In this document: positions 10,261-31,900 of the stretch, piece after piece
How positions within the stretch are numbered: the first letter of the stretch is position 1
Layout of the letters: each line of letters starts with the position of its first letter
From: Novosphingobium barchaimii LL02
Lineage (GTDB): Bacteria > Pseudomonadota > Alphaproteobacteria > Sphingomonadales > Sphingomonadaceae
Direction of reading: 5' to 3'
NCBI RefSeq assembly: GCF_001046635.1
Contig: NZ_KQ130454.1
Location: forward strand, 379,501 to 443,500
DNA: 64,000 bases
The notes under the pieces: generated by a model
Seen by the model: the letters and a program-made list of their open reading frames with translations, nothing else
What the model was told of the DNA's origin: nothing
The model's database searches: none
Position numbers and translations under genes: made by a program

Positions 10261-11406
10261 TCAGCCCGCGCGCAGGCGGGGCAGCGCCATGGCCCGGCGC
10301 CCGACCTGGCCGATGGCCGCACGCACCACAACATGGAGCGGCGGCTCCAGCCAGGCGGCGATGGCGAGCGAGGCCAATAACGATCCGGCCATCGCGCCCA
10401 GAAACGCCGGTACCGGGCCAAGCGGGGCTGCGGCCAGCAAAATGGCGCCGCCGACATGGATATGGATGAGATAGAGCGGGTAGGTCGACAGGCCCGCCAG
10501 CCGCAATGCGCCTGAAAAGCGCTTTGCCCGCACCGCGATCGCATCCCGGTACAGGAACGACAGCGCGACCAGCGCCGTGATCGCAAGCCAGATTCCATAA
10601 GCCAGTGGCCATCGCCCGGCGAGGTCTGCCCGTCCGGCCATTTCCCAGCTCGCCGCTTCGCGAACCTGCAAGGCCGCCGCTGTAACGCAGGCAAGTGCCA
10701 AGACCAGATGCCGCCGCCGCAGATCGCCATTACCAAGCCGGGCGCAGAGCATGCCGATCGCGAAATACCCCCCGTGCTGGAACAGCAGGAGTTCGGTGAG
10801 GCGCCCTCCTCCTGCCAGCAGCCCTGTCGCTACCGCCGTCCAGTACCCCGCGCTCGCCAGCCCCAGCCCCCAGGCAAGCGCCTGCATCCCGCGCGCGGCC
10901 CGGCCCGATGCCAGCATCGCCCAGATCACCGCGTAGAAGCACAGTTCGACCGGGATGGTCCAGAACTGACCGATGATCCAGGGCCCCCAAGGCATGAACG
11001 TGAGCGTCTTGAGCGCCAGCCACGCCGCCTGTCCGGGCGGAACGGCAAAGACCAGCACCGCGACCGGAAAGGCAATGGCGCAGGCGATCAGCAGTGCCGG
11101 CAGCAACCGCGCCGCGCGCCGCTTGGCAAAACTGCGCGCGCTGACCCCTTGCGCCGAATAGGCGATGACCGCCCCCGAAACGACGAAGAACACCTGAACG
11201 CCGACCCATCCGCACCAGCTCAGCTGCCAGCCGGGCGGATAGGCGATCACGGCGCCCAGCGCCGCGTTGAGCATACTGCCTTCGATCGCCCAGACCTTGA
11301 ACCCCAGGTGATACACCACCACCAGCACGGCAGCGAGCAGGCGCACGGCATCGAGCCCATAGACGGGCGCCTTGCGCGGAAGGGAAGATACGGGGCTGGA
11401 CGTCAT
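10261..11406 (-). CDS. Acyltransferase-3 family membrane protein
   Basis: This 381-residue OafA/ExoZ-like protein has about ten membrane segments. The N-terminal YGLDAVRLLAAVLVVVYH matches the family's R-x10-H motif. A later FFVVSGAVIAYSA and WTIPVELCFY segment carries the conserved Glu. It probably O-acetylates or otherwise acylates the polysaccharide on the periplasmic side. I use the ATG at 11406; a TTG at 11427 in the same frame would add seven residues. The gene follows the glycosyltransferase that ends at 11445, on the same strand, so the two form a short operon read from the divergent promoter near 12.6 kb. Confidence 0.85.
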   Translation of the reverse strand: MTSSPVSSLPRKAPVYGLDAVRLLAAVLVVVYHLGFKVWAIEGSMLNAALGAVIAYPPGWQLSWCGWVGVQVFFVVSGAVIAYSAQGVSARSFAKRRAARLLPALLIACAIAFPVAVLVFAVPPGQAAWLALKTLTFMPWGPWIIGQFWTIPVELCFYAVIWAMLASGRAARGMQALAWGLGLASAGYWTAVATGLLAGGGRLTELLLFQHGGYFAIGMLCARLGNGDLRRRHLVLALACVTAAALQVREAASWEMAGRADLAGRWPLAYGIWLAITALVALSFLYRDAIAVRAKRFSGALRLAGLSTYPLYLIHIHVGGAILLAAAPLGPVPAFLGAMAGSLLASLAIAAWLEPPLHVVVRAAIGQVGRRAMALPRLRAG

Positions 11407-19897: not shown

Positions 19898-20117
19898 GCG
19901 GCCAATTCCCTCGACAGTTACTATCGGCGCGACATCGCAGCCGATGAACACATGGAACGCGGCAAAGGATAAAGAGAACGCGGCCAACTACAGTGTTAAA
20001 AAATAGTCACTGCGCGCGAACATCCTGCGAATATCGAGGTAACTCTGGTAGTCCCCGTACATGGCAGGGCACCGCGAAACCGCATGTGCAAGTCAATCCA
20101 CGGAGACAGTCCACGAC

Positions 20118-21377
20118 ATGACCGCCCCGTCGATCGCCATTGCGCCGGCGCTCGCGCACGGCGACATTGCAGGCATACCCCGCAAGCGTATGCGCGCCAT
20201 CAACCGCGTAGTGCTATTCAACGTGAAATACAGCCCCAATTTGGGCGACGGCCTGCTGAGCGAATGCCTGGAACGCGAACTGATGCGCTCGCTACCCGAT
20301 TGCGAGGTGGTGTCCGTAGACCTTGCCGGCCGCACCGAATATCCTGCATCTCACGGCGGCGCGCGCGGCCTGGCTCTTGCCCTGCTTGACCGCTGCCCCC
20401 CGCCGCTTCGCCAGTTCGCCGCGCGGGCCATGCTCGAAATGCTGCTGCGCGGGCGCCTGCGCGGGCGTTATCGCCGCGGACTGTCCGGCGCTGATGCAGT
20501 GGTTATAGGCGGCGGTAACCTGCTCACCGATTCGGACCTCAACTTTCCGATGAAGATCTCTGGCGCCCTCGCCGAGGCGGCAAGGCTCTCGCTGCCCGTC
20601 TCGGTCTATGCGGTAGGCGTCGCGCCCAGTTGGTCCCAGGCCGGCGCGAAACTGTTCAACCGCGCTTTCTCCCGCACGCGCCTGATCTGGGCGTCAGTGC
20701 GCGACGATCGCTCGCGGCAAGGCTGGGCCGCACATTTCGGCCCCCGCGTGGTCCCTGCCGAAGTGGTGGTGGACCCGGGCGTGCTTGCCAGCCTGCATTA
20801 CCCACCCGCACCGCGCAGCCCGAGCGGCCGCAAGGTCGGCTTTTGCGTGACCGATCCACTCGCGGTACGCTACCATAGCGACAAATCTTCTGCCGCCACG
20901 CTTGAGGACTGGTATCCGGCGGCGCTTCGTTCGCTGGTGGAAGAAGGCTTTGAAGTCGCCCTTTTCACCAACGGCAGCCCGGAAGACCGCGAATACCTGC
21001 ACGGCCGATTCTATGACTGGATACGCCATGCACGAGGGCCGGTCACGCTCAGTCCGTCTTTCGAAACCCCTGCCGATCTCGCCAGTTTTGTCTCGGGCTG
21101 CGACGCCATCGTCGGCCACCGCATGCACGCCTGCATCGCCGCCTACTCCTTCGGCGTTCCCGCCGTGGGGCTGCGCTGGGACGTAAAACTCGACAGCTTC
21201 TTCGATCTGGCGGGGCGAGGACGCCACATGCTCGACCCGGCCTCCGTGGACGCCGCCGACGCGGGGGCCCGCACCACCGCCGCCATCGCCGATCATCTCG
21301 ACCCTGCCCCCCTGATCGCGCAGGCATGCCGGGAAGTGGCCGAATTCGCGGCGCGCCTGCAGGGGGCCAACGCATGA
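20118..21377 (+). CDS. Polysaccharide pyruvyl transferase family protein
   Basis: This 419-residue PF04230-type protein is the third and longest of the locus. Key parts are VLFNVKYSPNLGDGLLSECL, AVVIGGGNLLTDSDLNFPMK, WASVRDDRSRQGWAAHFGPR and the C-terminal CDAIVGHRMHACIAAYSFGV followed by LRWDVKLDSFF. I use the ATG at 20118 (GGAGA upstream); an ATG at 20061 in frame would add 19 residues. Its stop overlaps the next glycosyltransferase start as ATGA. The substrate is unknown. Confidence 0.82.
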   Translation: MTAPSIAIAPALAHGDIAGIPRKRMRAINRVVLFNVKYSPNLGDGLLSECLERELMRSLPDCEVVSVDLAGRTEYPASHGGARGLALALLDRCPPPLRQFAARAMLEMLLRGRLRGRYRRGLSGADAVVIGGGNLLTDSDLNFPMKISGALAEAARLSLPVSVYAVGVAPSWSQAGAKLFNRAFSRTRLIWASVRDDRSRQGWAAHFGPRVVPAEVVVDPGVLASLHYPPAPRSPSGRKVGFCVTDPLAVRYHSDKSSAATLEDWYPAALRSLVEEGFEVALFTNGSPEDREYLHGRFYDWIRHARGPVTLSPSFETPADLASFVSGCDAIVGHRMHACIAAYSFGVPAVGLRWDVKLDSFFDLAGRGRHMLDPASVDAADAGARTTAAIADHLDPAPLIAQACREVAEFAARLQGANA

Positions 21378-22642
21378 TCGGCCGCATCGTCCAGATCAAC
21401 GACCTCAGCGACCCCAAGGGCGGCGCCAGCAAACTCGCGGTACAGGCCGCCTGCGATCTCGCCGCACGCGGACACCAGGTGACTTTCATCACCGGCGACG
21501 CGGGAGACAGCCGCGCCCTTGCCGACGCCGGCGTCGAGATCGTCGCCCTCGGCCAGCAGCGCCTGCTTGCGGGAAGCCGCGCCAAGGCGATGGTGACCGG
21601 CCTTTGGAACCACGCAGCCCACACGATGGTGCGCGACTGGATCGCCCGGCACGATACCCCCGCAACCGTCTATCACCTGCATGGCTGGTCGCAGATTCTT
21701 TCGCCGTCGGTGTTCGGCGCCCTCGATCCGGTACGCGAACGCCTCGTCATCTCCGCGCACGACTTTTTCCTGGCCTGCCCCAACGGCGCATTCGCCTGGC
21801 TCAAGTCGGGCGAGGTATGTCCGCACGTCCCGCTTTCCCGCGCCTGCCTCTCTACCCCCTGCGACCGGGATGGCACCGCGCGAAAGCTGTGGCGCAGCGC
21901 GCGCCAGGCAGTCCAGCGCCGCGCCTACCGGCCGCGCTCCTCGCCGCCGGTGCTCGCCATTCACGAAGGCATGCGCGATTTCCTCGCCCGGGCAGGCATC
22001 CCCGCCGGATCGATCATCGCCCTGCCCAATCCGGTCGAACCCTTCTCGTCACGGCGCATTGCGGCAGAGCACAACCGCGAAGTCCTGTTCGTCGGCCGCC
22101 TGGAAGAAACCAAGGGCGCCGATCTGGCGGCGCACGCAGCCGCGCGCGCGGGGGCCGCGCTTACCGTGGTGGGCGAAGGTCCGCTAGCCGATCGCATCCG
22201 CCAGATTCATCCCGCAGCCCGCCTCATGGGACGGCGCAGCCCCGCCGAAATTCGCGATCTTGCCGCCAATGCGCGGATGCTGGTCATGCCCAGTCGCTAC
22301 CCCGAACCTTTCGGCCTGGTGGCGATCGAAGCGGCATGGAGCGGTCTGCCGGTGATCCTGTCCCGAACCGCACTGCTCAGTGACGACCTTGTCGCATCCG
22401 GCGCCGGTATCGCCGTCGATCCGCGCAACGTCGATGCGTTTGCCGACGCGATCCGCACGATTCTTCAGAACGATGCGTTAACGCGCGCGATGAGCGAGGC
22501 GGCGTTTATCCGTACGATGTCCCTGGCCCTGACCCCGTCCGCATGGATAGATCGCCTGGAAGCCATCTTCGATGAAAGGGTCAAAATGGCACCGGGCGAT
22601 ATCCCCATGGCGCTCGAACAACGCTTGCAGGCACACCGATGA
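21374..22642 (+). CDS. GT4-family glycosyltransferase
   Basis: This 422-residue GT-B enzyme has IVQINDLSDPKGGASKLAVQ at the N-terminus and TVYHLHGWSQILSPSVFGAL in the acceptor half. The insert ACPNGAFAWLKSGEVCPHVP resembles the Cys-containing loop of several sphingomonad GT4 proteins. The donor half has VLFVGRLEETKGADLAAHAA and VMPSRYPEPFGLVAIEAAWS with the E-x7-E pair. ATGA overlap with the pyruvyl transferase shows an operon. It probably adds a sugar of the repeat unit. Confidence 0.87.
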   Translation: MIGRIVQINDLSDPKGGASKLAVQAACDLAARGHQVTFITGDAGDSRALADAGVEIVALGQQRLLAGSRAKAMVTGLWNHAAHTMVRDWIARHDTPATVYHLHGWSQILSPSVFGALDPVRERLVISAHDFFLACPNGAFAWLKSGEVCPHVPLSRACLSTPCDRDGTARKLWRSARQAVQRRAYRPRSSPPVLAIHEGMRDFLARAGIPAGSIIALPNPVEPFSSRRIAAEHNREVLFVGRLEETKGADLAAHAAARAGAALTVVGEGPLADRIRQIHPAARLMGRRSPAEIRDLAANARMLVMPSRYPEPFGLVAIEAAWSGLPVILSRTALLSDDLVASGAGIAVDPRNVDAFADAIRTILQNDALTRAMSEAAFIRTMSLALTPSAWIDRLEAIFDERVKMAPGDIPMALEQRLQAHR

Positions 22643-22983
22643 CTGCGATCAATGCCGTCCTTGCGATGGCCATACCTGCGAGAGCCAGCAGCGCCTCAAT
22701 GCGATTAAAAATTCGCAAGGCGAACTTGGCAGACCTTAACCGCAAGATCAGTTCTGGGCAAAAGTCTGTAATTCTCAAACTAAACATCCCTATTTTATCT
22801 ATATGGAATTCAATAACATTAACCCGGAAATTAAATTAAATTAATTGCGCTCCGATATGACCCATATTGCACTGCAAAATGTAGTTGTTACGAACCGATA
22901 AACCGAAATATGGTATATCCATATTAATTGATTCGTCGGTCAAAATCAGTGTGATCGCGGCGGGTTCAATCAGGAGCATGTCG
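22643..22983 (+). promoter_or_regulatory. AT-rich control region upstream of the priming transferase
   Basis: These 341 bases hold no convincing gene. A 66-codon frame from 22639 overlaps the previous stop but is made of AT-rich codons with no domain and no separate ribosome-binding site. Base composition is markedly richer in A and T than the flanks, as expected for a promoter. Two palindromes, listed separately, lie in the downstream half. Confidence 0.5.
22855..22924. promoter_or_regulatory. Pair of ATATG-type palindromes, candidate operators
   Basis: ATATG-N3-CATAT at 22855-22867 and ATATGG-N5-CCATAT at 22908-22924 are both perfect inverted repeats sharing the half-site ATATG. Their centres are about 55 bases apart, close to five helical turns, and they sit 60-130 bases before the start of the priming transferase gene. 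This layout suits cooperative binding of a dimeric regulator. The regulator is not identified. Confidence 0.45.
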
Positions 22984-23706: not shown

Positions 23707-23943
23707 CTATTTTATGAGCGCAACGATCCCGCCCCACAGCCCCAGGCTGATCAGCGCCGCCAGCAGCCACCATCGCCACAAAAGCGGCCTCCCGCCGATC
23801 GGCTGCGCCGTTTCAGCGGCTTTTGCCGTATGCGGGCTGGCACCATGATCGGCGCCTGCTTTCCAGGGGCCGATATCGCGGTATGCGCCGGTATCCGGTT
23901 CCGGCCTGCCGGAAACATCGTTTCCAGGCTCACTCGCAGTCAT
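23707..23943 (-). CDS. Small protein with one C-terminal membrane segment, unknown
   Basis: This 78-residue protein is not one I recognise. Its first 50 residues are polar and low in predicted structure. Residues 56-77 (WRWWLLAALISLGLWGGIVA) form a single membrane segment at the very end, so it would be tail-anchored with a cytoplasmic N-terminus. The ATG at 23943 has GAAGG upstream. It converges on the priming transferase (9 bases between stops) and is divergent from the lasso cluster, so it could belong to either. Coding status is moderately supported by the sensible hydrophobic pattern. Confidence 0.5.
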   Translation of the reverse strand: MTASEPGNDVSGRPEPDTGAYRDIGPWKAGADHGASPHTAKAAETAQPIGGRPLLWRWWLLAALISLGLWGGIVALIK

Positions 23944-24052
23944 AATTCGCAGCCTTCGTAATGCGACGCCGAAAAACCAACGCGGACGGCAGTAAACCCG
24001 TTCCTTTGATAGCACCATGCCGCCAATTGGTCGAGCCGCACGGGATGGCACC

Positions 24053-24910
24053 ATGTTCCAATCGCTTGATCTGACGGACCCTCTGATCGCGCACCGATAC
24101 ATGGTGGCGATGCGCGTGCTGCACGAGCTGCCGGGCTTCGACTGGTATGACAGCCAGTTCCTCGCCAAGTTCGAAGCGGCACGCCAGATGCTGCAAATCG
24201 TCAATCCGGGCAGCGTCGCATCCTTCACGGCCGCTTTCGATGTCCTGCGCACCGCGCCGGACTTCAAGGTCTGCCACGTGCGCCCGCTTCTCGGCGATGC
24301 CCACTTCGAGACCCTGCTGGCCGAAGTCCGCGCGTTACCACCCAAGGCGCTGAAATCGCGTGAAAACGCCCAGTTCGGGCGCGACATCTTCCACGACCTT
24401 CCCGCGCTGGGCATTCTGCAACGCGAGCTCACGCCGCTGGTGTCGGAACTTGCCGGCGAAGAAGTCGAACCCTGCTACAATTTCCTCAGCCTATATCACG
24501 GCGGCGGACGGTGCCCCCCGCACATGGATGCACCCTCCGCCAAATGGACGCTCGACCTGTGCCTCGCGCAAAGCTGCGAATGGCCTATCCGGTTCAGCGA
24601 CATAGTCCCCTGGCCAACCGCCGGAGAGGCTGCGACGGTATCCGACGAGACCGACCCCGCCCTGCTCGGTATCGTCTTCGAGGATCATATCCTGCATCCC
24701 AACGAAGCCTTGCTGTTCTCCGGATCCTCGCAGTGGCATTACCGCGATGCGATCCCGGATGGAGGGTTCTGCCACCTCGCTTTCCTGCATTATCACCCGG
24801 CGGGCTGCGCCGATCTCATCGACCCCGCCCGTTGGGCCACCCGTTTCGGCTTGCCCGAACTCGCCGTGCTTGACGCCGTGTTCGACGCCATGCGGCCGGT
24901 GGCGCAGTGA
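24053..24910 (+). CDS. 2-oxoglutarate/Fe(II) oxygenase-like protein of the lasso cluster
   Basis: This 285-residue protein has a C-terminal double-stranded beta-helix pattern. HGGGRCPPHMDAPSAKWTLD carries a possible metal-binding H-x-D. About 70 residues later SSQWHYRDAIPDGGFCHLAF carries a distal His and an Arg that could bind the co-substrate. The first 100 residues are helical with no motif that I know. The ATG at 24053 follows GGGATGG; the ATG at 24017 would add 12 residues. Its stop overlaps the kinase gene (TGATG), placing it in the lasso operon. A hydroxylase acting on the peptide is a reasonable inference. The oxygenase assignment itself is tentative. Confidence 0.6.
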   Translation: MFQSLDLTDPLIAHRYMVAMRVLHELPGFDWYDSQFLAKFEAARQMLQIVNPGSVASFTAAFDVLRTAPDFKVCHVRPLLGDAHFETLLAEVRALPPKALKSRENAQFGRDIFHDLPALGILQRELTPLVSELAGEEVEPCYNFLSLYHGGGRCPPHMDAPSAKWTLDLCLAQSCEWPIRFSDIVPWPTAGEAATVSDETDPALLGIVFEDHILHPNEALLFSGSSQWHYRDAIPDGGFCHLAFLHYHPAGCADLIDPARWATRFGLPELAVLDAVFDAMRPVAQ

Positions 24911-25845
24911 TGACGGCAACGTACCGCGTCTTCGGCCTGGACGTCCGCTTTCCTCGCGAAGTTCCCACCTTGCGCGGTGCCCGCATCGGTGACGATACCG
25001 CCGCAGATGTCCACGTCGCCTTCGCCCCGGTCGCCCCGCTACCGGTTATGGAAACCGTCAACGACGACCTCGATACTTCGTGGAACGCCGAAGGGCTGAC
25101 GATCGCGGTGGAGGAAGTGGGCCGGTTCCTGATCCGCGGCGGCCACACCATCGTCGTCGATCCCTATCCCGGCGTCAGCCAGGCCGAGATCGACCTCTAC
25201 CTTGCCGGCTCGATCATGGGCGCCATCCTGCACCAGCGCGCGATCATGCCGCTGCACTGCAATGCCTTTGCCTGCGGCGGGGCAGCCGTTCTTCTGTGCG
25301 GCGATTCGGGCGCCGGCAAGTCGACCCTTGCCGCCTGGTTCGAAGGTCGAGGCCGCCCGCTTCTGACCGACGACGTCTGCGCAGTCACGTTTGACCCAAA
25401 AGGCACAGCGCTCGGCCATCCCGGAATGCCGCGCCTTCGCCTGTGGGACGATGCCCTTGAAGCCATGGAACGGATCGGCCAGGCGGCCTGTTCGGTCCCA
25501 TGGGCGGACGGCAAGTTCGAACTCGAAATGTCGTCGGACCGCGTCCGGCAGCCACTCCCCATCGCCGCGATCTACCATTTGCGCGAAGCAGAGCCGGACA
25601 GCGGTTTTGCGATCACCGCGCTGCGCGGCCTGCCGGCCATCGATGCGATCACCTCCAGCATATATCGGCGGCGCATCGGCGACCTTGTCGGGCATACGGC
25701 CGGCTATTTGCAGGACACAGCACGCCTGGCGACCGGGACCCCGGTATTCCGGGTCGAGCGGACCTGGGGGATGGAACACTTCAACAGGGAAGCCGCGCTT
25801 ATCGAAGATCATGCGATTGCCCTTTGCAGCCAAATCGCAGCATGA
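24910..25845 (+). CDS. HPr-kinase-like kinase of a lasso cluster
   Basis: This 311-residue protein resembles the C-terminal kinase domain of HprK. It has a P-loop GDSGAGKST at about residues 131-139, then RPLLTDDVCAVTFD with the acidic pair, and a C-terminal region AITALRGLPAIDAITSSIYR. In paeninodin-type clusters, homologous kinases phosphorylate the C-terminal Ser of the lasso precursor, and the precursor encoded next door ends in Ser. The ATG at 24910 overlaps the oxygenase stop; a GTG at 24907 is also possible. It lacks the N-terminal domain of true HprK and no HPr gene is nearby, which argues against a role in sugar regulation. Confidence 0.82.
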   Translation: MTATYRVFGLDVRFPREVPTLRGARIGDDTAADVHVAFAPVAPLPVMETVNDDLDTSWNAEGLTIAVEEVGRFLIRGGHTIVVDPYPGVSQAEIDLYLAGSIMGAILHQRAIMPLHCNAFACGGAAVLLCGDSGAGKSTLAAWFEGRGRPLLTDDVCAVTFDPKGTALGHPGMPRLRLWDDALEAMERIGQAACSVPWADGKFELEMSSDRVRQPLPIAAIYHLREAEPDSGFAITALRGLPAIDAITSSIYRRRIGDLVGHTAGYLQDTARLATGTPVFRVERTWGMEHFNREAALIEDHAIALCSQIAA

Positions 25846-25993
25846 AAATTCTTTAACACCCCTGCCGCACTGCAATATAAACTTGAAGTAGACAGCAGCA
25901 ATGTTAGCATTCAAATCTGCAACACAAGTAATATAAGAAAAGTATCTTTTTTGCGTTACTTAGTGTTGCTTTTTAAAGAAAGGCCGGTTCGAA
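25846..25993 (+). promoter_or_regulatory. AT-rich leader and probable promoter of the precursor gene
   Basis: These 148 bases between the kinase gene and the precursor gene are strikingly AT-rich compared with the flanks, which suggests the precursor has its own promoter. A TTGAAG at 25883 and a TTGCGT at 25951 are possible -35 elements, but no -10 element at the right spacing is convincing. AAAGAAAGG just before the precursor ATG is its ribosome-binding site. Confidence 0.4.
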
Positions 25994-26146
25994 ATGACCA
26001 ACTCCAACAATACCATGGGTACTTCGGGTCGCATGACCTGGCAGCGCCCGGCTGTCGTCCGCATGGGCGCAGCTGACGCCGAAGGTACGACGATGATGTC
26101 GATGCTCACCGACGGCGCCAACCCGCGCCGTATGATGGGCTCCTAA
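25994..26146 (+). CDS. Lasso peptide precursor (A gene)
   Basis: This 50-residue peptide starts MTNSNNTMGTSGRM and ends NPRRMMGS. The leader carries W16-x2-P19-x-V21-x3-G25, matching the known leader motif Y-x2-P-x-L-x3-G bound by B1 proteins, with Trp in place of Tyr. Thr32 fits the conserved penultimate leader Thr, although it lies one residue further from the Gly than usual. Cleavage after Thr33 gives a 17-residue core from Met34 to Ser50. Asp40 is then core residue 7 and the only acidic residue in the core, so a seven-residue Met1-Asp7 macrolactam ring is predicted. Five of the 17 core residues are Met and two are Arg. The C-terminal Ser50 is the residue modified in kinase-containing clusters. 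It lies directly between the kinase and B1 genes. Confidence 0.8.
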   Translation: MTNSNNTMGTSGRMTWQRPAVVRMGAADAEGTTMMSMLTDGANPRRMMGS

Positions 26147-26155
26147 GGCCTTGGG

Positions 26156-26209
26156 GAAGCCGGCTCCGGCAGTTCTCACGAACTTTCGGAGCCGGCTTCT
26201 TTAGGTTTT
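26156..26209 (+). terminator. Terminator-like hairpin after the lasso precursor
   Basis: A perfect 12-bp inverted repeat, GAAGCCGGCTCC at 26156-26167 and GGAGCCGGCTTC at 26188-26199, is followed by a T-rich tract to 26209. The 20-base loop holds a second 5-bp stem (AGTTC/GAACT). It begins 10 bases after the precursor stop and before the processing genes, all on the same strand. It probably acts as a leaky terminator that keeps precursor transcripts more abundant than the enzyme mRNA. Confidence 0.8.
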
Positions 26210-26341
26210 CAGGTTCGAAGGCCTGCCCGGCTCGATCGTCAGGCGCCCTGCAATCTGCGCCACCGGCACCCACCTATCTTCTCTCACTTCGTCCTGCCCT
26301 GCTTTTCGGCAGTGCGCATGTGCCCCGGCAAAGGACCATCC

Positions 26342-26626
26342 ATGACCGCTGTGATTACGAGTGTCGAAACTTTCACCAAGAACCCGACAACCGCAACGGC
26401 GGAAGTCGACGGGCAGTTGGTCGCGCTCGATATCCAGGCCGGCGTCTGCTTTGGCCTGAACGAGGTCGCCACCCGAATCTGGAAACTGCTCGACGAGCAT
26501 CATGACGTGCCCGCGCTGTGCGATGCCCTTCTGGATATCTACGACGTCGACCGCGCCACCTGCGAGGAAGAAACGCTCGCGCTGCTGCGCGAACTCGTCG
26601 ATGCCGGCCTGGTCGGCAGGGCCTGA
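26342..26626 (+). CDS. PqqD-like leader recognition protein (lasso B1)
   Basis: This 94-residue RRE/PqqD-fold protein binds the precursor leader and delivers it to the B2 peptidase. The family pattern is visible: a DGQLVALDIQAGVCFGLNEV beta-sheet segment, then TRIWKLLDE and the C-terminal helix EEETLALLRELVDAGLV. The ATG at 26342 has AAAGGA 7 bases upstream; an ATG at 26312 would add a 10-residue tail with no match. It is separate from B2, as in paeninodin-type clusters rather than the fused B protein of microcin J25-type clusters. Confidence 0.88.
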   Translation: MTAVITSVETFTKNPTTATAEVDGQLVALDIQAGVCFGLNEVATRIWKLLDEHHDVPALCDALLDIYDVDRATCEEETLALLRELVDAGLVGRA

Positions 26627-26682
26627 AACGCAAACCATATGACGCGGCACAAGTCATCCGCTCGGGCGCAGGATCCGCTTAA

Positions 26683-28638
26683 GTGACTGCTATCTGCGCG
26701 CTCTGGAACCGCGACGGAGCCGACGCCACGGACATGGCCCGGCCATTCGCCATGGCATCCCGGCGTTATGGCCGCGAGCCCTGGCGTTCCTGGTCAGGCG
26801 GATCGGTGCTGCTGGGCAGGTGCCTGTTCCCGCTCCTGCCAGAGGATCGGCTAGACGAACCTTTGGACAATGAGCAGCAGCGCTGGATCGTCGCCGCCGA
26901 CGTGCGGCTGGCGGAGCGCGAGGACCTTGCCGCCCAACTGAACCTCGATCCGGTGACGCTGTCAGACGGCGCGATTGTGGCGGCAGCGCTCGAACGCTGG
27001 GGCGAGGCTGCGTTCGAACGGATTTACGGCGTCTTCGCGGTGATCGCCTGGGACAGGCAGGAACGCCGCCTCGTTCTGGCCCGCGATGCCATGGGGGACC
27101 GCCCCCTTTATTACCATGCCGAGGCAGGACGCTTTGCAGCCGCCTCCATGCCGGACATCCTCCTTGCCGATCCGGCCACACCCCGCACACCCGACGTCGA
27201 GCAGTACCGCCAATTCCTGCGCATGAACTCGTTCGCGCCCGGGCGCTCTGCCTATACCGGCATCGATATCGTACGTCCGGGGCATATGCTGGCGGTGTCC
27301 AGCACGGGTCAGCAGGAAACCGCATGGTGGAAGCCTGACCTCACGCCGCTGCTGCTCAACACCCAGGCGGAATACGAAGACACCCTGTCTCAGGCGATCG
27401 AGAACGCCGTGGGCACCTGCCTGCGCCGCGCATCCGGCAAAGTCGGCGCGCACCTGAGCGGGGGTTTTGACAGTACCGCCGTCGCCACCACCGCTGCCCT
27501 CGCGCTCGCCCGTGACGGCCAGCGCATAACCGCCTTCGTCGCGGCGCCCCGCGAAGGCCCGGTGCGCACGATGGCCACGCGCCATTTTGCCGACGAATCG
27601 CATGTCGCGGCGCGCACCGCCGCCATGCATGACAATATGGACCTTGTGCGGGTCGTGCCCGGGCAAGGTCCGCTGGCCGGGCTTGACCGTACCCGCGCTC
27701 TTTACCCCTCGCCCATTGTGAACTTGTGCAACTTGCCCTGGTTCGAGGAAATCAACGACACGGCCCGCGACCATGGGGTCAGCGTCCTGCTTCACGGCCT
27801 TATGGGCAACAGTTCGATCAGCGAATCCGGCATCTGGGCCTTGCGCGAACTGGCTCGGCAACGCCGTTTCAAGCTGTGGCTGCGCACCGCGCGCGGCCTT
27901 GTGCGCGGCGGCTGGATGCGCTGGCGCGGCGTGCTGTTCAACACCGTCGAAGACCTTCTTCCCGACCGGCTCTGGCGCTGGGGCATGGTGCTTTCGGGCC
28001 GCCCTATCGAGGACGACCGCGACATGTCGCTGCTCACCGACAGCGCCTATGAAGAAGCTGCACAGGCCCATTGCCATGCTGCGGCAGAGGCCGGGGAACC
28101 AGTTCCCGATTCTGGACGATTCGGGCGGGAGCGGGGCATCTCCAGCGTCGAGGGCCGCCTGATCAGCACACGCACCAATGGCGCCGGCGACCACTACAAG
28201 GCCATGCTCGCCGAATGGGGGCTGGACCTGCGCGATCCCACCGCCGACCGCAGGCTGTTCGAACTGGCCTTGCGCATTCCGGTTGAACGGCTGGTCTGGA
28301 ACGGTGAGCCGCGCGCGATCCTGCGCCGCGTGCTGGCCGACCGCGCTCCGCCCGAAGTGCTGGATAACCGCCAGCGCGGCTATCAGGGCGCCGACTGGGC
28401 CCAGGCGATCTGCCAGGACCGGCAGGCCTTCGTCGACGAGATGGAGCGGCTTGAACTGTACGAACCCACCGCCGCCTTCCTCGACACCGCCAAAGTTCGC
28501 CGCCTGATCGCCGATCTGCCCGAAGACGGTTCGTCCGATTGGGACAGTGACGAGGCCGAAAACAGTTACCGCCTGGCCTGCCTGCTCACGATCTCGGCGG
28601 CCAGCCACATGCGAAGCATCGCAAGGAGCAATCTGTGA
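26683..28638 (+). CDS. Asparagine-synthetase-like lasso cyclase (C protein)
   Basis: This 651-residue homologue of AsnB would adenylate the ring Asp side chain and close the macrolactam with the core N-terminus. The N-terminal glutaminase-like half is recognisable (ERIYGVFAVIAWDRQERRLV, then ARDAMGDRPLYYH). The catalytic Cys2 of true AsnB is absent, since the start reads M-T-A-I-C, so glutamine hydrolysis is not expected. The ATP-binding half has HLSGGFDSTAVA at about residue 257 and a C-terminal NRQRGYQGADWA segment. The start is GTG at 26683 with AGGA upstream. The stop overlaps the methyltransferase start (GTGA). Confidence 0.9.
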   Translation: MTAICALWNRDGADATDMARPFAMASRRYGREPWRSWSGGSVLLGRCLFPLLPEDRLDEPLDNEQQRWIVAADVRLAEREDLAAQLNLDPVTLSDGAIVAAALERWGEAAFERIYGVFAVIAWDRQERRLVLARDAMGDRPLYYHAEAGRFAAASMPDILLADPATPRTPDVEQYRQFLRMNSFAPGRSAYTGIDIVRPGHMLAVSSTGQQETAWWKPDLTPLLLNTQAEYEDTLSQAIENAVGTCLRRASGKVGAHLSGGFDSTAVATTAALALARDGQRITAFVAAPREGPVRTMATRHFADESHVAARTAAMHDNMDLVRVVPGQGPLAGLDRTRALYPSPIVNLCNLPWFEEINDTARDHGVSVLLHGLMGNSSISESGIWALRELARQRRFKLWLRTARGLVRGGWMRWRGVLFNTVEDLLPDRLWRWGMVLSGRPIEDDRDMSLLTDSAYEEAAQAHCHAAAEAGEPVPDSGRFGRERGISSVEGRLISTRTNGAGDHYKAMLAEWGLDLRDPTADRRLFELALRIPVERLVWNGEPRAILRRVLADRAPPEVLDNRQRGYQGADWAQAICQDRQAFVDEMERLELYEPTAAFLDTAKVRRLIADLPEDGSSDWDSDEAENSYRLACLLTISAASHMRSIARSNL

Positions 28639-29702
28639 CGCCGAATACCCGGTTCCCGCGCCTGGCCGAAGCAGCGGTCGACACCCTGCTCGCCTCCGTC
28701 CACGGCAATGCGATCGCGATGATCAACTGCGCCCGCACGCTGCTGCGCGAAAACGACCAGCAGGAACGCGCCCGCGCCGTCTGCCGCGAGGCGCTGGCCC
28801 TCGCGCCGACGAACGCCGAAGCGCAGGCACTGGCGCGCCCGATTCTGTCCGAGGGTATCGGCAGTTGGTATTTCACCATGGTTCTCGACACGTATCGGCA
28901 CGAACTTTACGCGCGCGCCCTGCGCCGGGTGCTGGCGAACGGCGGTGTGGTGCTGGATATCGGCGCGGGAACCGGGGTTTTCGCCATGCTGGCCGTCCAG
29001 GCCGGCGCCAGCCATGTCGTCGCCTGCGAACGCGATCCTGAAGTGGCTCGCGCAGCAAGCGAGATCATCGCACGCAATGGCTTTGCCGACAGGATAACCC
29101 TCCTGCCGATCGACTCGCGCGAACTGAACCTGGGCCGCGACCTGCCCGAACCGGCCGACGTGCTTTTGTGGGACAACCTCGCCAACAACTTCCTGGGGGC
29201 GGGCTGCGCCGCGACGCTGGCGGATGCCAAGGCCCGGCTGCTCAAGCCCGGCGCACCGGTGCTGCCGGGGCGGGCGGAACTGCTTGTCGCCCCCGTCACC
29301 AACCTCGAAGCCGCGCAGCACTGCATGGGCATCGTCGATGGACTGGACATGACGCCGTTCAACGCACTGCGTAGCACTGACTTCACACTGAGCTGCGATA
29401 AGTTCACGCTGCGCAGCGAACCTGTTACGCTGTTCGATTTCGACGTTACCGGCCCGGAGCCGATCCGCCCCGATCGGTCCAGCGCTGCTGTATCGCTTAC
29501 CGCAGGGCAAGTGGACGGAATAGCCCAGTGGCTGCGCTTCCACCTTGCGGACGACATCGCCTACGATACGCTGGGCGAAGAAGTTCGTGCTTTCGGCGCG
29601 CAGTACCACGTCGTCGATTCGTTCGAGGCGGCCGAAAACCAGCAAGTGCGCCTCCACGGCGCTCATGACACGATCGACACCTGGTTCTGGATCGAGCCGT
29701 GA
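28635..29702 (+). CDS. PRMT-like SAM-dependent methyltransferase of the lasso cluster
   Basis: This 355-residue class I methyltransferase has a TPR-like N-terminal helix pair (ARAVCREALALAPTNAEAQA). It continues with SWYFTMVLDTYRHELYARAL, SAM motif I VVLDIGAGTGVFAMLAVQAG at about 108-127, and CERDPEVARAA with the ribose-binding acidic residue. It resembles protein-arginine methyltransferases, including a long C-terminal beta region. The position of the PRMT double-Glu loop reads LLWDNLANNF, so both catalytic Glu residues appear replaced and Arg methylation is not assured. GTG start at 28635 overlaps the cyclase stop, and its own stop overlaps B2, so it is an integral operon member. The substrate could be the core peptide, which contains Arg-Arg. 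Confidence 0.75.
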   Translation: MTPNTRFPRLAEAAVDTLLASVHGNAIAMINCARTLLRENDQQERARAVCREALALAPTNAEAQALARPILSEGIGSWYFTMVLDTYRHELYARALRRVLANGGVVLDIGAGTGVFAMLAVQAGASHVVACERDPEVARAASEIIARNGFADRITLLPIDSRELNLGRDLPEPADVLLWDNLANNFLGAGCAATLADAKARLLKPGAPVLPGRAELLVAPVTNLEAAQHCMGIVDGLDMTPFNALRSTDFTLSCDKFTLRSEPVTLFDFDVTGPEPIRPDRSSAAVSLTAGQVDGIAQWLRFHLADDIAYDTLGEEVRAFGAQYHVVDSFEAAENQQVRLHGAHDTIDTWFWIEP

Positions 29703-30193
29703 ACCAGGACGACCTTGCTTCCCTGCGCACGAAGTTCGGTCGTTTCGACTGGGAGGAACGGCGCGCGCTGGTGGAAGCGATGGTGCTGCTGGTGCTCGCC
29801 GCCCCGCTGGTGCGGTTCCTGCCGCTGACGCTGATCGGCCGGATCGCCGCCGCCGGCCCTTTCGGCAAGCCGCCGGCCGCGACCGATCGCACCGAGGTGT
29901 TGACGTGGATGGTCGCATGGGCGGTTGACCGCGCCGCCAAACGCAGCCCCTTGCGCGCTCTGTGCTTCGAGCAGGGCCTGGCCGCGCAGATCATGCTGCG
30001 CCGGCGCGGGATCGATTCCACACTGTTTTACGGGGTCATGCCAGCATCCGGTACAGCGCGGCCGATCCGTGCCCATGTCTGGATCGAGACGGAACGCTTT
30101 CCGGTTATCGGCGATCCCGAACCCGGCGGCTTCGCGCTTCTCGCCACCTGGCCGCAAGGGCGCCGCGCCGTGTGGGCGCAGTGCCGGTCATGA
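29699..30193 (+). CDS. Transglutaminase-like leader peptidase (lasso B2)
   Basis: This 164-residue cysteine protease would cut the leader from the core. The catalytic triad is visible: Cys89 in LRALCFEQGLAAQIM, His126 in AHVWIETERFP and Asp139 in IGDPEPGG. This spacing matches lasso B2 proteins. Residues 26-50 are hydrophobic, as in most B2 proteins. The start is GTG at 29699, overlapping the methyltransferase stop, and the stop overlaps the nucleotidyltransferase start as ATGA. It works with the B1 protein at 26342. Confidence 0.9.
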   Translation: MNQDDLASLRTKFGRFDWEERRALVEAMVLLVLAAPLVRFLPLTLIGRIAAAGPFGKPPAATDRTEVLTWMVAWAVDRAAKRSPLRALCFEQGLAAQIMLRRRGIDSTLFYGVMPASGTARPIRAHVWIETERFPVIGDPEPGGFALLATWPQGRRAVWAQCRS

Positions 30194-31371
30194 CGGCACC
30201 TTCCGGCACGCCTGTCCTGTGCCCTGAATTCGCATTCCTGCTGCATGCCACGCGCTGGCCGCACGACGCCGATGCGATCGAGACCATTCGCCATGCCGCA
30301 GCGGCCATTCGCGATCCTGCCCGGCTTATCGCCCTGGCCCGGCGGCACCATGTGACAGGACTGGTAGCCCGCGCCGTCGGCCATTGCGAGGGTTTGGCAG
30401 ATACGCCGCTGCGCCGCGAACTGCGGCAGGACGCACTGGATCTGGCGGAGGAGCAGTTCCGCCAGCTGCTGCAAACCCGGCAGGCCGTGGCGGCTCTGCG
30501 GGCGCACGATATTCCCGTGGCGGTGCTTAAAGGAGCACCGGCCGCGCTCACCATCTACGGCGAGGTCGGGGTTCGAACGAGCATCGACATCGACCTGCTG
30601 ATCGCCCGCAAGGATCTGGAACGCGCGCACGAGGTGCTGTCCCGCGTCGGCTACGAACGCAGCGAGCCGCCTTGCGGCGCAACGGCACGGCAGCTTGGAG
30701 CGGTGTCACGCTACGGCAAAGACTGGGCTTACGACCACGAGCATAGCGACACCGGCATAGAACTGCACTGGCGCCTGTTCCAGAACCCGCGCCTGCTCGG
30801 CCATGTCGGGGTGGACGATGCGGTCGATGCCGTGGTCTCCCCCGGCATCACCTTGCCTGTCCTGCCGCGCGACCTGGGCACGCTTTACCTCACCGCGCAC
30901 GGGGCCGAACATGCCTGGTCACGCCTGAAGTGGCTGGCCGACCTTGCCGCCGTGTTGCGGCAGGAACCCGGCGCCGCTGACCGCCTGGTCACGGACGCCG
31001 CGGCCAATGGCATCGAACACATGACGATGGCCGCGCTTCTGCTCTGCCACGAACTCTACGCCACGCCCCTGCCTGAAAAGGACTGTGCGGCGCTGGCTCA
31101 GGAATGGCGCACCCGCAAGCTGCTGGACATCGCGCGCGCCAGCCTGATCGGCGAACAGGACGGGACCGAGCTGGAGGACCGCGCGATGGCGACCACGCGC
31201 AAGAATCTTGGCCACTATCTGTTTTCCAGCGATCCGCGCTACTGGTGGCGCGAACTGACGTATGACCTGTTCCACGATGCCGGCGCCGACCATTCCCGCA
31301 GCCTGGCCGGGCGTGTGATCCAGCGGATCGTCAACGTCATGCGCCTGCCCTCGGCCCGTGCGGCATCCTGA
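30190..31371 (+). CDS. Nucleotidyltransferase family protein of the lasso cluster
   Basis: This 393-residue protein of the NTP_transf_5-like family has a mid-protein motif PVAVLKGAPAALTIYGEVGV, then RTSIDIDLLIARKDLERAHE with the D-x-D metal site. It continues with TGIELHWRLFQNP and TLYLTAHGAEHAWSRLKWLA. Homologues accompany HprK-like kinases in lasso clusters. For pseudomycoidin, one is reported to attach hexoses to the C-terminal phosphate. The ATG at 30190 overlaps the B2 stop. It is the last gene of the operon; I see no transporter or isopeptidase after it. Confidence 0.82.
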   Translation: MTAPSGTPVLCPEFAFLLHATRWPHDADAIETIRHAAAAIRDPARLIALARRHHVTGLVARAVGHCEGLADTPLRRELRQDALDLAEEQFRQLLQTRQAVAALRAHDIPVAVLKGAPAALTIYGEVGVRTSIDIDLLIARKDLERAHEVLSRVGYERSEPPCGATARQLGAVSRYGKDWAYDHEHSDTGIELHWRLFQNPRLLGHVGVDDAVDAVVSPGITLPVLPRDLGTLYLTAHGAEHAWSRLKWLADLAAVLRQEPGAADRLVTDAAANGIEHMTMAALLLCHELYATPLPEKDCAALAQEWRTRKLLDIARASLIGEQDGTELEDRAMATTRKNLGHYLFSSDPRYWWRELTYDLFHDAGADHSRSLAGRVIQRIVNVMRLPSARAAS

Positions 31372-31450
31372 TTTGGATGACTGTAATTTCACTTAGAAAC
31401 GCCAAGTTTTAAACGTGATTTTCAGAATTTCGGGCGACAAGGGAGGCATG

Positions 31451-31900
31451 ATGTCTTCCCTGCTCACGCCCCGGTTCCTCGTCAACGCCGCCAGGCTGGC
31501 GCTGCTGCCATGCCTGGGCGGGCTTGCCGCCGTCATCCTGGGTTTCGACGCGTCGCCCGCCTGCGCCGCCGCGGCGACGTTCCTTGCCGCCATCGTCATG
31601 CTTCAGGCGGCGCCCAAAGTGCGGGCCGCCGACATGCTTGGCATCCTCGCGCTTGTGGTCACGATGCTGGAGTGGGTCCATGCGGGAATGACCGGCGGCA
31701 TCGACTTCGTACGGTGGCAGGCAGTGATCGCGGTGTCCGGCGCAATGGCGCTGCTGCTCAAGATACAGCATTTTCGTTCGCTCGCACGGGAAGACCCTTA
31801 TGTGCCGCTGCGGCATCTGGAGCGGCGCGGCGCCCTGTTGAGCCGGCCCCCGCTGCGCACGGATGAAACCCCGGCGCCGCGCGCCCGGCGCGCCGCCTGA
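31451..31900 (+). CDS. Small membrane protein, unknown function
   Basis: This 149-residue protein has about four hydrophobic segments in its first 105 residues (ALLPCLGGLAAVILGF, ATFLAAIVMLQAAP, MLGILALVVTMLEW, AVIAVSGAMALLLK). A basic, Pro/Arg-rich tail of about 40 residues follows. I do not recognise the family. The ATG at 31451 is preceded by GGGAGG. It lies 79 bases after the lasso operon on the same strand and converges on dnaE2. A role in export of or immunity to the lasso peptide is possible from position only. Confidence 0.6.
   Translation: MSSLLTPRFLVNAARLALLPCLGGLAAVILGFDASPACAAAATFLAAIVMLQAAPKVRAADMLGILALVVTMLEWVHAGMTGGIDFVRWQAVIAVSGAMALLLKIQHFRSLAREDPYVPLRHLERRGALLSRPPLRTDETPAPRARRAA

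Follow-up and report, generated by a model that had tools for sequence, protein, structure and literature searches.

What product should be expected from a cluster in which the enzymes of lasso peptide biosynthesis stand beside a kinase, a nucleotidyltransferase, a methyltransferase and an oxygenase? The question is raised by a stretch of 64,000 nucleotides from Novosphingobium barchaimii LL02 (NZ_KQ130454.1, positions 379,501 to 443,500, called the window here over its full length), where eight genes, OX, K, A, B1, C, MT, B2 and NT in that order, occupy the forward strand from 24017 or 24053 to 31371. Judged from its genes alone, the locus is probably a lasso operon of the phosphorylated kind known from paeninodin and pseudomycoidin, extended by an oxygenase and by an unusual methyltransferase with the fold of the protein arginine methyltransferases (PRMTs). 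What was observed is the gene content and its conservation, the predicted folds and catalytic motifs, the separation of the cyclase from AsnB and the association of the methyltransferase with Met-rich precursor tails. A sequence-only reading had earlier placed lasso-type machinery and the four tailoring activities in one alphaproteobacterial operon, and the conserved gene set, the protein families and the folds agree with it. The features, with RiPP standing for ribosomally synthesised and post-translationally modified peptide and SAM for S-adenosylmethionine, are as follows.

24053-24910, forward strand: OX, Fe(II)/2-oxoglutarate (2OG)-dependent oxygenase, hydroxylase-like; alternative upstream ATG at 24017
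24907-25845 (GTG start) or from 24910 (ATG), forward strand: K, HPr-kinase-like lasso-precursor kinase
25994-26146, forward strand: A, precursor peptide of 50 residues with a W-x-x-P motif in the leader and a C-terminal Ser
26087-26143, forward strand: predicted core TTMMSMLTDGANPRRMMGS, placed from the leader spacing across relatives
26145-26209, forward strand: stable hairpin, attenuator- or terminator-like, directly 3' of A
26342-26626, forward strand: B1, PqqD-like RiPP recognition element (PF05402)
26683-28638, forward strand: C, AsnB-like lasso macrolactam cyclase without Cys2 (PF00733; best NCBIfam match NF033535)
28635-29702, forward strand: MT, PRMT-fold SAM methyltransferase with an N-terminal helical (TPR-like) region, from predicted structure and loop comparison
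29699-30193, forward strand: B2, transglutaminase-like leader peptidase (NF033537)
30190-31371, forward strand: NT, PF14907 nucleotidyltransferase-fold protein, which on the model of PsmN may transfer a glycosyl or nucleotidyl group
31415-31900, forward strand: hydrophobic open reading frame (ORF) of 161 residues after NT, with no family above the Pfam or NCBIfam cut-offs

We infer the following reactions, in this order, and with them the ring and the modification sites. B1 would hold the leader of the 50-residue precursor, K would phosphorylate its C-terminal Ser, and NT would add a hexosyl or nucleotidyl group to the Ser phosphate, as proposed for PsmN. OX would hydroxylate the core and MT would methylate it, most likely inside the Met-rich tail. 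B2 would remove the leader, and C would activate the Asp side chain and link it with the freed N-terminus in a threaded ring, for which Thr1-Asp9 is preferred. New here are the Fe(II)/2OG oxygenase with an intact HxD...H motif and the PRMT-fold methyltransferase. Neither a lasso cluster with this enzyme set nor a PRMT-fold lasso methyltransferase was found in the literature searched, most subscription papers being outside its scope.

Lasso machinery and gene order

On its phylogenetic placement the cyclase C is not an asparagine synthetase. Four AsnB-type proteins form a group of their own in the cyclase tree (support 100/100; 57 rows at first, 56 after the misframed AsnB row L147 was removed and the tree rebuilt), and placing the window cyclase among them, the outcome that the sequence-only reading had named as fatal to itself, is rejected (approximately unbiased test, p-AU 4.8e-55). 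The window cyclase falls instead in a clade of seven rows (100/99), the window with loci L001, L110, L111, L112, L113 and L002. C matches PF00733 at 89.9 bits (cut-off 21) and begins MTAIC..., hence the lack of Cys2 noted earlier. The separate PqqD-like B1 beside a precursor gene is equally there (PF05402, 69.9 bits against a cut-off of 23.4), and B2 exceeds both the lasso-specific NF033537 (72.0 bits, cut-off 33) and PF13471 (64.5 bits, cut-off 26), with Cys89 and His126 invariant in 7/7 aligned B2 proteins.

The arrangement is conserved. A scan of genome contigs with C gave two loci: L001, from Novosphingobium sp. 18050, has the full set of eight genes, ordered as in the window, with enzymes 93-95% identical and A 86% identical, and L002, from a Pseudomonadota metagenome-assembled genome, has the partial set K-A-B1-C-MT-B2, OX and NT not being found in the 18 kb examined. 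Within the genus, C matches occur in 35 of 195 genomes and are close in five (G454 95% identity, G001 94%, G445 73%, G524 53%, G409 46%). The loci L110 (C 95%), L111 (C 73%) and L113 (C 46%) again hold all eight genes in the order of the window, and the contig of L112 ends just before the expected positions of A, K and OX. The comparison of gene order across sphingomonads that had been proposed thus yields the eight-gene arrangement in four other genomes (L001, L110, L111 and L113), and it is not a matter of chance. The junctions are less uniform than first described: the 4-base overlap said to mark almost every one is present at only four of seven (OX/K, C/MT, MT/B2 and B2/NT), and gaps of 148, 195 and 56 bases separate K from A, A from B1 and B1 from C. 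The operon may extend slightly past NT to include the ORF at 31415-31900, a counterpart of which also lies 3' of NT in L001 (12732-13217).

Precursors accompany the cyclases, a point on which the earlier reading had staked itself. By motif and by eye, a precursor-like gene lies near C for 49 of the 54 lasso-type cyclases in the tree, the paeninodin reference not being counted. In a search for more distant relatives that might fix the core boundary, an MT profile matched 46 of 385 genomes of the class and C matched 4 of 61 relatives of genome G002; three of the ten regions obtained held C (L189, L190, L191), with K, B1 and B2 adjoining it in two of the three, and motif search gave no clear precursor at these three loci and no clear new window-clade precursor in any of the ten. 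On Azospirillum plasmids, as a separate observation, PqqD, AsnB-like and lasso B2 genes and several 2OG oxygenase-type genes lie near runs of "tail fiber" genes (L078, L079).

The precursor and its ring

A matches no Pfam or NCBIfam family; W-x-x-P precursors stand beside the lasso enzymes in the window, L001, L110, L111, L113 and L002. The leaders of this clade read W-[QE]-[RQ]-P-...-R-M-...-A-E-, followed by the core, and the residues after AE are GTTMMSMLTDGANPRRMMGS in the window, GTTMMSMITDSTHPRRMMGS in L001, GTTMMSMITDSTLPRRMMGS in L110, GNTMMSMVTDTLRPRRMMGS in L111, NANAPTGEGNSNMGMAS in L113 and AGPGMAVEMIGGGTGDNGMMTS in L002. The leader, TMMSM, TD and PRRMMGS are common to the window, L001, L110 and L111, and the C-terminal Ser is present in 6/6 precursors found.

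Where the core begins decides the ring. Counting the leader Trp as -16 puts Thr first in the window core and Asp at position 9, the four core types giving rings of 9, 9, 7 and 7; counting it as -15 puts Gly first and Asp at position 10, with rings of 10, 10, 8 and 8; a start at the other Thr would put the window Asp at position 8. In a related clade with hand-assigned boundaries, Trp lies at -16 in 15 precursors and at -17 in five others. The related precursor of L122, whose leader ends Leu-Thr-Gly before Thr-Lys-Ser-Gly-Ala-Ser-Met-Gly-Asp, would also give Thr1-Asp9. We prefer the Thr1-Asp9 ring, with a cleavage site taken from leader spacing, because the rings known from natural lasso peptides have 7-9 residues. 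Rather unlikely is the alternative that the lasso-like ring has ten residues (Gly1-Asp10, the leader ending Ala-Glu) or that the product is macrocyclic but unthreaded: L039, L038, L080 and L120 have leaders ending in Ala(-2) and Glu, Gln or Arg(-1), with G1-D8 or G1-D9 rings after them, whereas moving the boundary one residue later brings all four core types within the natural sizes. One engineered system, that of the fusilassin enzymes, tolerates rings of 7-10 residues according to the available part of PMC13352647.

Several points weigh against a lasso assignment of this kind and are best taken together. The proposed search with lasso-specific profiles carries for B2, but not for C (204.5 bits on the lasso cyclase model NF033535, cut-off 525) or B1 (50.3 bits on the lasso PqqD chaperone model NF033536, cut-off 80), though these lasso models are their best NCBIfam matches. 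B2 had been called a Cys-His-Asp protease; the Cys and His stand, but the Asp is not conserved among the aligned B2 proteins. No transporter was recognised among the profiled ORFs. The Thr usual at leader position -2 is absent for every plausible boundary, Glu, Gly or Ala taking its place, and the cleavage site and the ring size are ambiguous. Exceptions with Ile or Val at -2 are reported in the accessible portion of PMC10368454.

Directly after A, the window RNA folds into a hairpin of -44.6 kcal/mol (z -7.8), and a hairpin occurs at the matching place in all five loci folded (window, L001, L110, L111 and L113; z -2.6 to -9.0, L111 being the weakest). Such an element could allow more transcription of A than of the enzymes.

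Three further observations concern precursors elsewhere. In one clade of Novosphingobium-group kinase clusters, the residue at core position 8 or 9, which from the hand-assigned boundary should be a ring-closing Asp or Glu, is Gln in ten and Asn in one of 15 precursors, 11 in all (L126, L128, L133, L134, L135, L138, L139, L140, L141, L142, L144), and nine of the 11 have no acid anywhere in the core. The relatives L127, L129, L130 and L131 have Glu or Asp there, and across 20 rows of the cyclase tree three changes are needed; the Gln/Asn precursors either form rings from an amide or lead to a non-lasso product. Secondly, a lasso leader and core are fused to a C-terminal peptidase S74 (chaperone of endosialidase) domain in L052 (9128-9487, plus strand; 119 residues, 33.8 bits) and L122 (7509-7883, minus strand; 124 residues, 29.4 bits; Pfam cut-off 22), and by eye in L200 (minus strand, also in L214) and L201 (plus strand). 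The fused core would leave a C-terminal follower, perhaps through S74 self-cleavage, and no such fusion is described in the literature searched. Thirdly, on plasmid pTM1 of Tistrella mobilis (L080, 7872-15632) a cyclase, an HPr kinase, a PqqD protein and a precursor-like ORF of 48 residues (GAAGPFLDGATVSLPPP after the leader), annotated merely as asparagine synthase-related, HPr kinase, PqqD and hypothetical protein, are followed by a sigma factor, FecR and a TonB receptor.

Tailoring enzymes and Met-rich tails

The kinase K falls below the Pfam cut-off by itself (HPr kinase C-terminal PF07475, 21.7 bits against 33.3). It is 29% identical over 285 residues to the protein that occupies the kinase position, under the label "aldolase", in a cluster annotated as of the paeninodin family (L148), with PLH, GDSGAGKSTLA and DDV motifs in common (TDDV; His, Lys, Asp, Asp), and its earlier description as HprK-like holds. 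NT is a nucleotidyltransferase-family protein, as had been proposed (PF14907, 161.3 bits, cut-off 31.2). For PadeK, SyanK and PsmK the precursor C-terminal Ser is given as the modification site in the available text of PMC9266682, and by analogy the conserved C-terminal Ser fits this known kinase site. The same text describes pseudomycoidin (PsmK, PsmN), paeninodin and SyanK, and the accessible portion of PMC10368454 places a kinase and a nucleotidyltransferase (K and N) together in the bsf cluster. The kinase and nucleotidyltransferase pair is thus known biology in a new place, since nucleotidyltransferase genes occur with kinases in pseudomycoidin and bsf; of the earlier claim of a multiply tailored lasso peptide without a match, this part does not stand, and the enzyme set as a whole is what the literature searched does not contain.

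OX matches no Pfam or NCBIfam family. Its AlphaFold model (predicted local distance difference test, pLDDT, 88) has the fold of the 2OG oxygenases: the Protein Data Bank (PDB) matches are led by BesD, HalA and HalD and take in a hydroxylase homologue of these, and ALKBH6 and SnoN are further entries in the first 50. The E-value is 5.6e-9 at best, with a template modelling (TM) score of about 0.55, 10-16% identity and a root-mean-square deviation (rmsd) mostly above 10 Å. The residues H157, D159 and H229 are invariant in 11/11 aligned OX proteins, and because this HxD...H motif is intact a hydroxylase is to be expected of the modelled protein, called "oxygenase-like" earlier. Radical halogenases have HxG or HxA in place of HxD. 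A 2OG halogenase of the BesD type was accordingly considered and rejected, H157-x-D159 being kept in all 11. Family-wide, OX is matched in 13 of 397 genomes at a threshold of E 1e-8, and in seven of them at 5.9e-56 or better. All but one of the seven belong to lasso clusters that have the kinase (L001, L051, L053, L057, L072, L073); no other cluster gene was seen in the 20 kb of the seventh, L074.

The methyltransferase poses the harder question. MT scores 34.1 bits on PrmA (cut-off 22), its model (pLDDT 91) finds PRMT9, PRMT7 and PRMT6 in the PDB, and a profile of 17 methyltransferases of this type matches PRMTs across the PDB. PRMTs are textbook arginine enzymes, in which the two glutamates of the double-Glu loop hold the arginine. 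The PRMT1 loop SEWMGYFLLYE aligns to WDNLANNFLGAG in the window MT, and this or a near variant is found in 7/7 window-clade MTs (L112 included, its precursor lying off the contig); in all seven, one Glu has become Asp and the other Ala (Gln in L002). A second lasso clade has CDHIGYFGFDYG or a near variant in 8/8, so that the double-Glu loop is lost in 15/15 MTs of the two clades. Elsewhere, the MTs of L037, L038 and L039 keep Glu...Glu and that of L056 has Asp...Glu. Among PRMT-like homologues for which tblastn and annotation showed no neighbouring lasso gene, Glu...Glu is kept in 14 of 15, the exception being L050; six more from a class-wide search (in which L192 repeats L034) comprise four that keep it (L193, L194, L196, L197), one with Glu...Gln (L195) and one that departs (L198), making 18 of 21. 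The earlier label "PRMT-like" is therefore right for the fold and not for the arginine-binding pocket. Arginine methylation is not to be assumed, because that pocket is missing, and was rejected as the default; the window-clade MT has the shape of a PRMT but probably does not act on arginine. Just upstream of the double-Glu, PRMT-like MT of L194 lies a precursor-like ORF (10545-10760, minus strand; WSAPQLIVVDAALTQ then ATGNNLGEDGGVYS); its tail, EDGGVYS, has no Met, no cyclase was found in the 20 kb, and it was left out of the counts.

What the altered enzyme might act on is suggested by the precursors. At least two Met occur in the last eight core residues in 14 of 17 clusters with MT and in none of 32 without it (49 cyclase rows with a precursor). 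This count began from 59 cyclase rows, of which ten were left out: the AsnB-type L005, L123, L124_17111 and L146, the reference L148, and L073, L077, L112, L118 and L145, at which no precursor was located (the 38-residue ORF of L118, ending DIAGMPAS, is too short after the motif and would count as a cluster without MT and with one Met). Also left out was an orphan Met-tailed, S74-fused precursor, L201; its genome, G043, carries MT in the L055 cluster. Core starts were set by hand, as were the core ends of L052, L122 and L214, just before the S74 domain, and the sampling is not random, second-clade clusters with MT having come from MT, OX or C searches and those without it from a precursor search. 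In the second clade, whose leaders end GSVRNLTG or similarly, the eight clusters with MT (L051, L052, L053, L054, L055, L057, L072, L122) have core ends such as FMTMV, QSMVM, SMTMML, FMAMP, KSTMM, MSFMG, TMDMF and TMRM, and three rows nested among them without MT (L214, L215, L216) have cores without Met. For the genomes of L214 and L215 (G253, G113) no MT match at E 1e-12 is listed in a search of 298 genomes, from whose printed list of misses both are absent as well; the genome of L216 (G182) has an MT about 60 kb away. MT and the Met tail each change five times on the cyclase tree.

The case for a link between MT and Met has its own weaknesses. Only four independent contrasts fall on well-supported branches (two before the rows L214, L215 and L216 were added); on average 3.3 agree, 0.7 show no difference and none is opposite, and a sign test with four contrasts cannot reach 0.05, as fewer than six never can. 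Three clusters with MT lack a Met tail (L038, L039 and L056), and loop departures also occur in the three MTs without a lasso enzyme seen alongside (L050, L195 and L198). L038 and L039 have double-Glu MTs and an Arg in the core (GISYR...), which could be a genuine site of arginine methylation. The pattern suggests, and does not prove, two kinds of MT, double-Glu enzymes with Arg cores and loop-changed enzymes with Met tails. Both loci are themselves lasso-type clusters with two B1-like genes each and with cores GISYRIGDGISNLT (L038, 10545-10709) and GISYRPSDGLSNLTA (L039, 10572-10769).

We name Met S-methylation as the reaction of MT only tentatively, and regard it as somewhat doubtful. Rather unlikely, and bolder, is the full picture in which a PRMT-fold branch without the arginine pocket methylates a tail Met, and the product carries a methyl-sulfonium, a hydroxyl and a phospho-Ser that is itself glycosylated or nucleotidylated, which makes four modifications on some 19 residues; neither this combination nor such a PRMT activity is described in the literature searched. 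It is also conceivable, if not very likely, that MT methylates the C-terminal carboxylate, a function like that of the lassomycin methyltransferase and StspM in a different fold, with the Met-rich tail as a recognition feature only. The C-terminal residues do differ among the cores with MT; by itself, however, carboxylate methylation leaves the 14 of 17 Met-rich tails unexplained, and StspM and LahSB belong to families other than that of MT. C-terminal methyl esters of lasso peptides exist (PMC9266682, in the part available), and LahSB accepts Met, Ile or Val at the C-terminus (PMC11285071, likewise). That MT is an ordinary enzyme of the protein-arginine type acting on the Arg-Arg of the tail is improbable: the PRMT fold, the L038 and L039 pairing and the two Arg of PRRMMGS, invariant in the window, L001, L110 and L111, speak for it and, in the case of the window core, against Met methylation, but both arginine-binding glutamates are replaced in 7/7 window-clade MTs, and the cores of L002 and L113 in the same clade have neither Arg nor Lys after the AE boundary.

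Neighbourhood and known systems

On one side the cluster is flanked by exopolysaccharide (EPS)-type genes (window 1063-23697), among them a pyruvyltransferase (20061-21377) and a GT4 glycosyltransferase (21374-22642); downstream, on the other strand, lie an impB/mucB-type gene and a long ORF that by eye resembles dnaE2. The pyruvyltransferase and glycosyltransferase pair adjoins the cluster in the window, L001, L110, L111, L112 and L113, in two arrangements and on different sides of it; at the last two loci the pair lies 3' of NT and is read in the same direction. Its two genes were considered as dedicated lasso tailoring genes and rejected, since matches are found genus-wide in 47 and 49 of 195 genomes as against a close C in five. 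A non-lasso cassette of kinase, PqqD and nucleotidyltransferase linked to exopolysaccharide (HPr-rel-A-like) at the end of an EPS locus is very improbable: the adjoining genes are of that type (6/6 profiled, 1063-22642, and a sugar transferase at 22885), the pair accompanies 6/7 clade members, L002 excepted, and B1 and K find TIGR04353 (26.2 bits, cut-off 35) and TIGR04352 (24.3 bits, cut-off 200), but a small ORF with a leader motif is conserved, B2 exceeds a lasso-specific cut-off, B1 scores higher on its lasso model, and the pair is far commoner than close relatives of C. Divergent from OX, a small minus-strand reading (about 23707-23946) with one hydrophobic, possibly membrane-spanning segment has a similar counterpart in L001.

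If the preferred reading of a phosphorylated, further tailored lasso operon is true, a PRMT-fold branch that lacks the arginine-binding glutamates and tracks Met-rich tails would be a case of altered specificity in a fold that has been studied in depth, and natural controls come with it. Being small and expressible, the cluster would also lend itself to studying how four enzymes (kinase, PF14907 transferase, oxygenase and methyltransferase) work on a single 50-residue precursor, and it could settle whether PF14907 proteins transfer a sugar or a nucleotide.

Among known systems, pseudomycoidin (psm, with psmK and psmN, from Bacillus pseudomycoides) resembles the window in its lasso machinery, HPr-like kinase, nucleotidyltransferase-type protein and precursor C-terminal Ser, but belongs to another phylum, and the available part of PMC9266682 mentions no oxygenase or methyltransferase. 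Clusters of the paeninodin and SyanA type share the kinase motifs His...GxxGxGKS...Asp-Asp, the C-terminal Ser and the split B1/B2, whereas the window leader lacks Thr(-2) and the window adds OX, MT and NT. The bsf cluster of Bradymonas sediminis has B1, B2, C, K and N and a non-Thr residue at -2, but BsfK modifies Ser3, a transporter gene (bsfD) is present, and the genes listed in the accessible portion of PMC10368454 include neither MT nor OX. PRMT7 and PRMT9 share the fold of MT (TM 0.64-0.82, query-normalised, for its top five matches) and differ in the loop already described. The BesD and HalA halogenases and the lysine-hydroxylase homologue are the nearest folds to OX, which unlike the halogenases keeps HxD and lies at the low identity and high rmsd given above. 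For the two new activities there are precedents elsewhere: CanE, a lasso hydroxylase known here from a title cited in PMC9266682, for 2OG hydroxylation of a lasso peptide, and longipeptin A, where Met S-methylation is known and LopH is the proposed enzyme (PMC11285071, in the part available), for a Met sulfonium in a RiPP.

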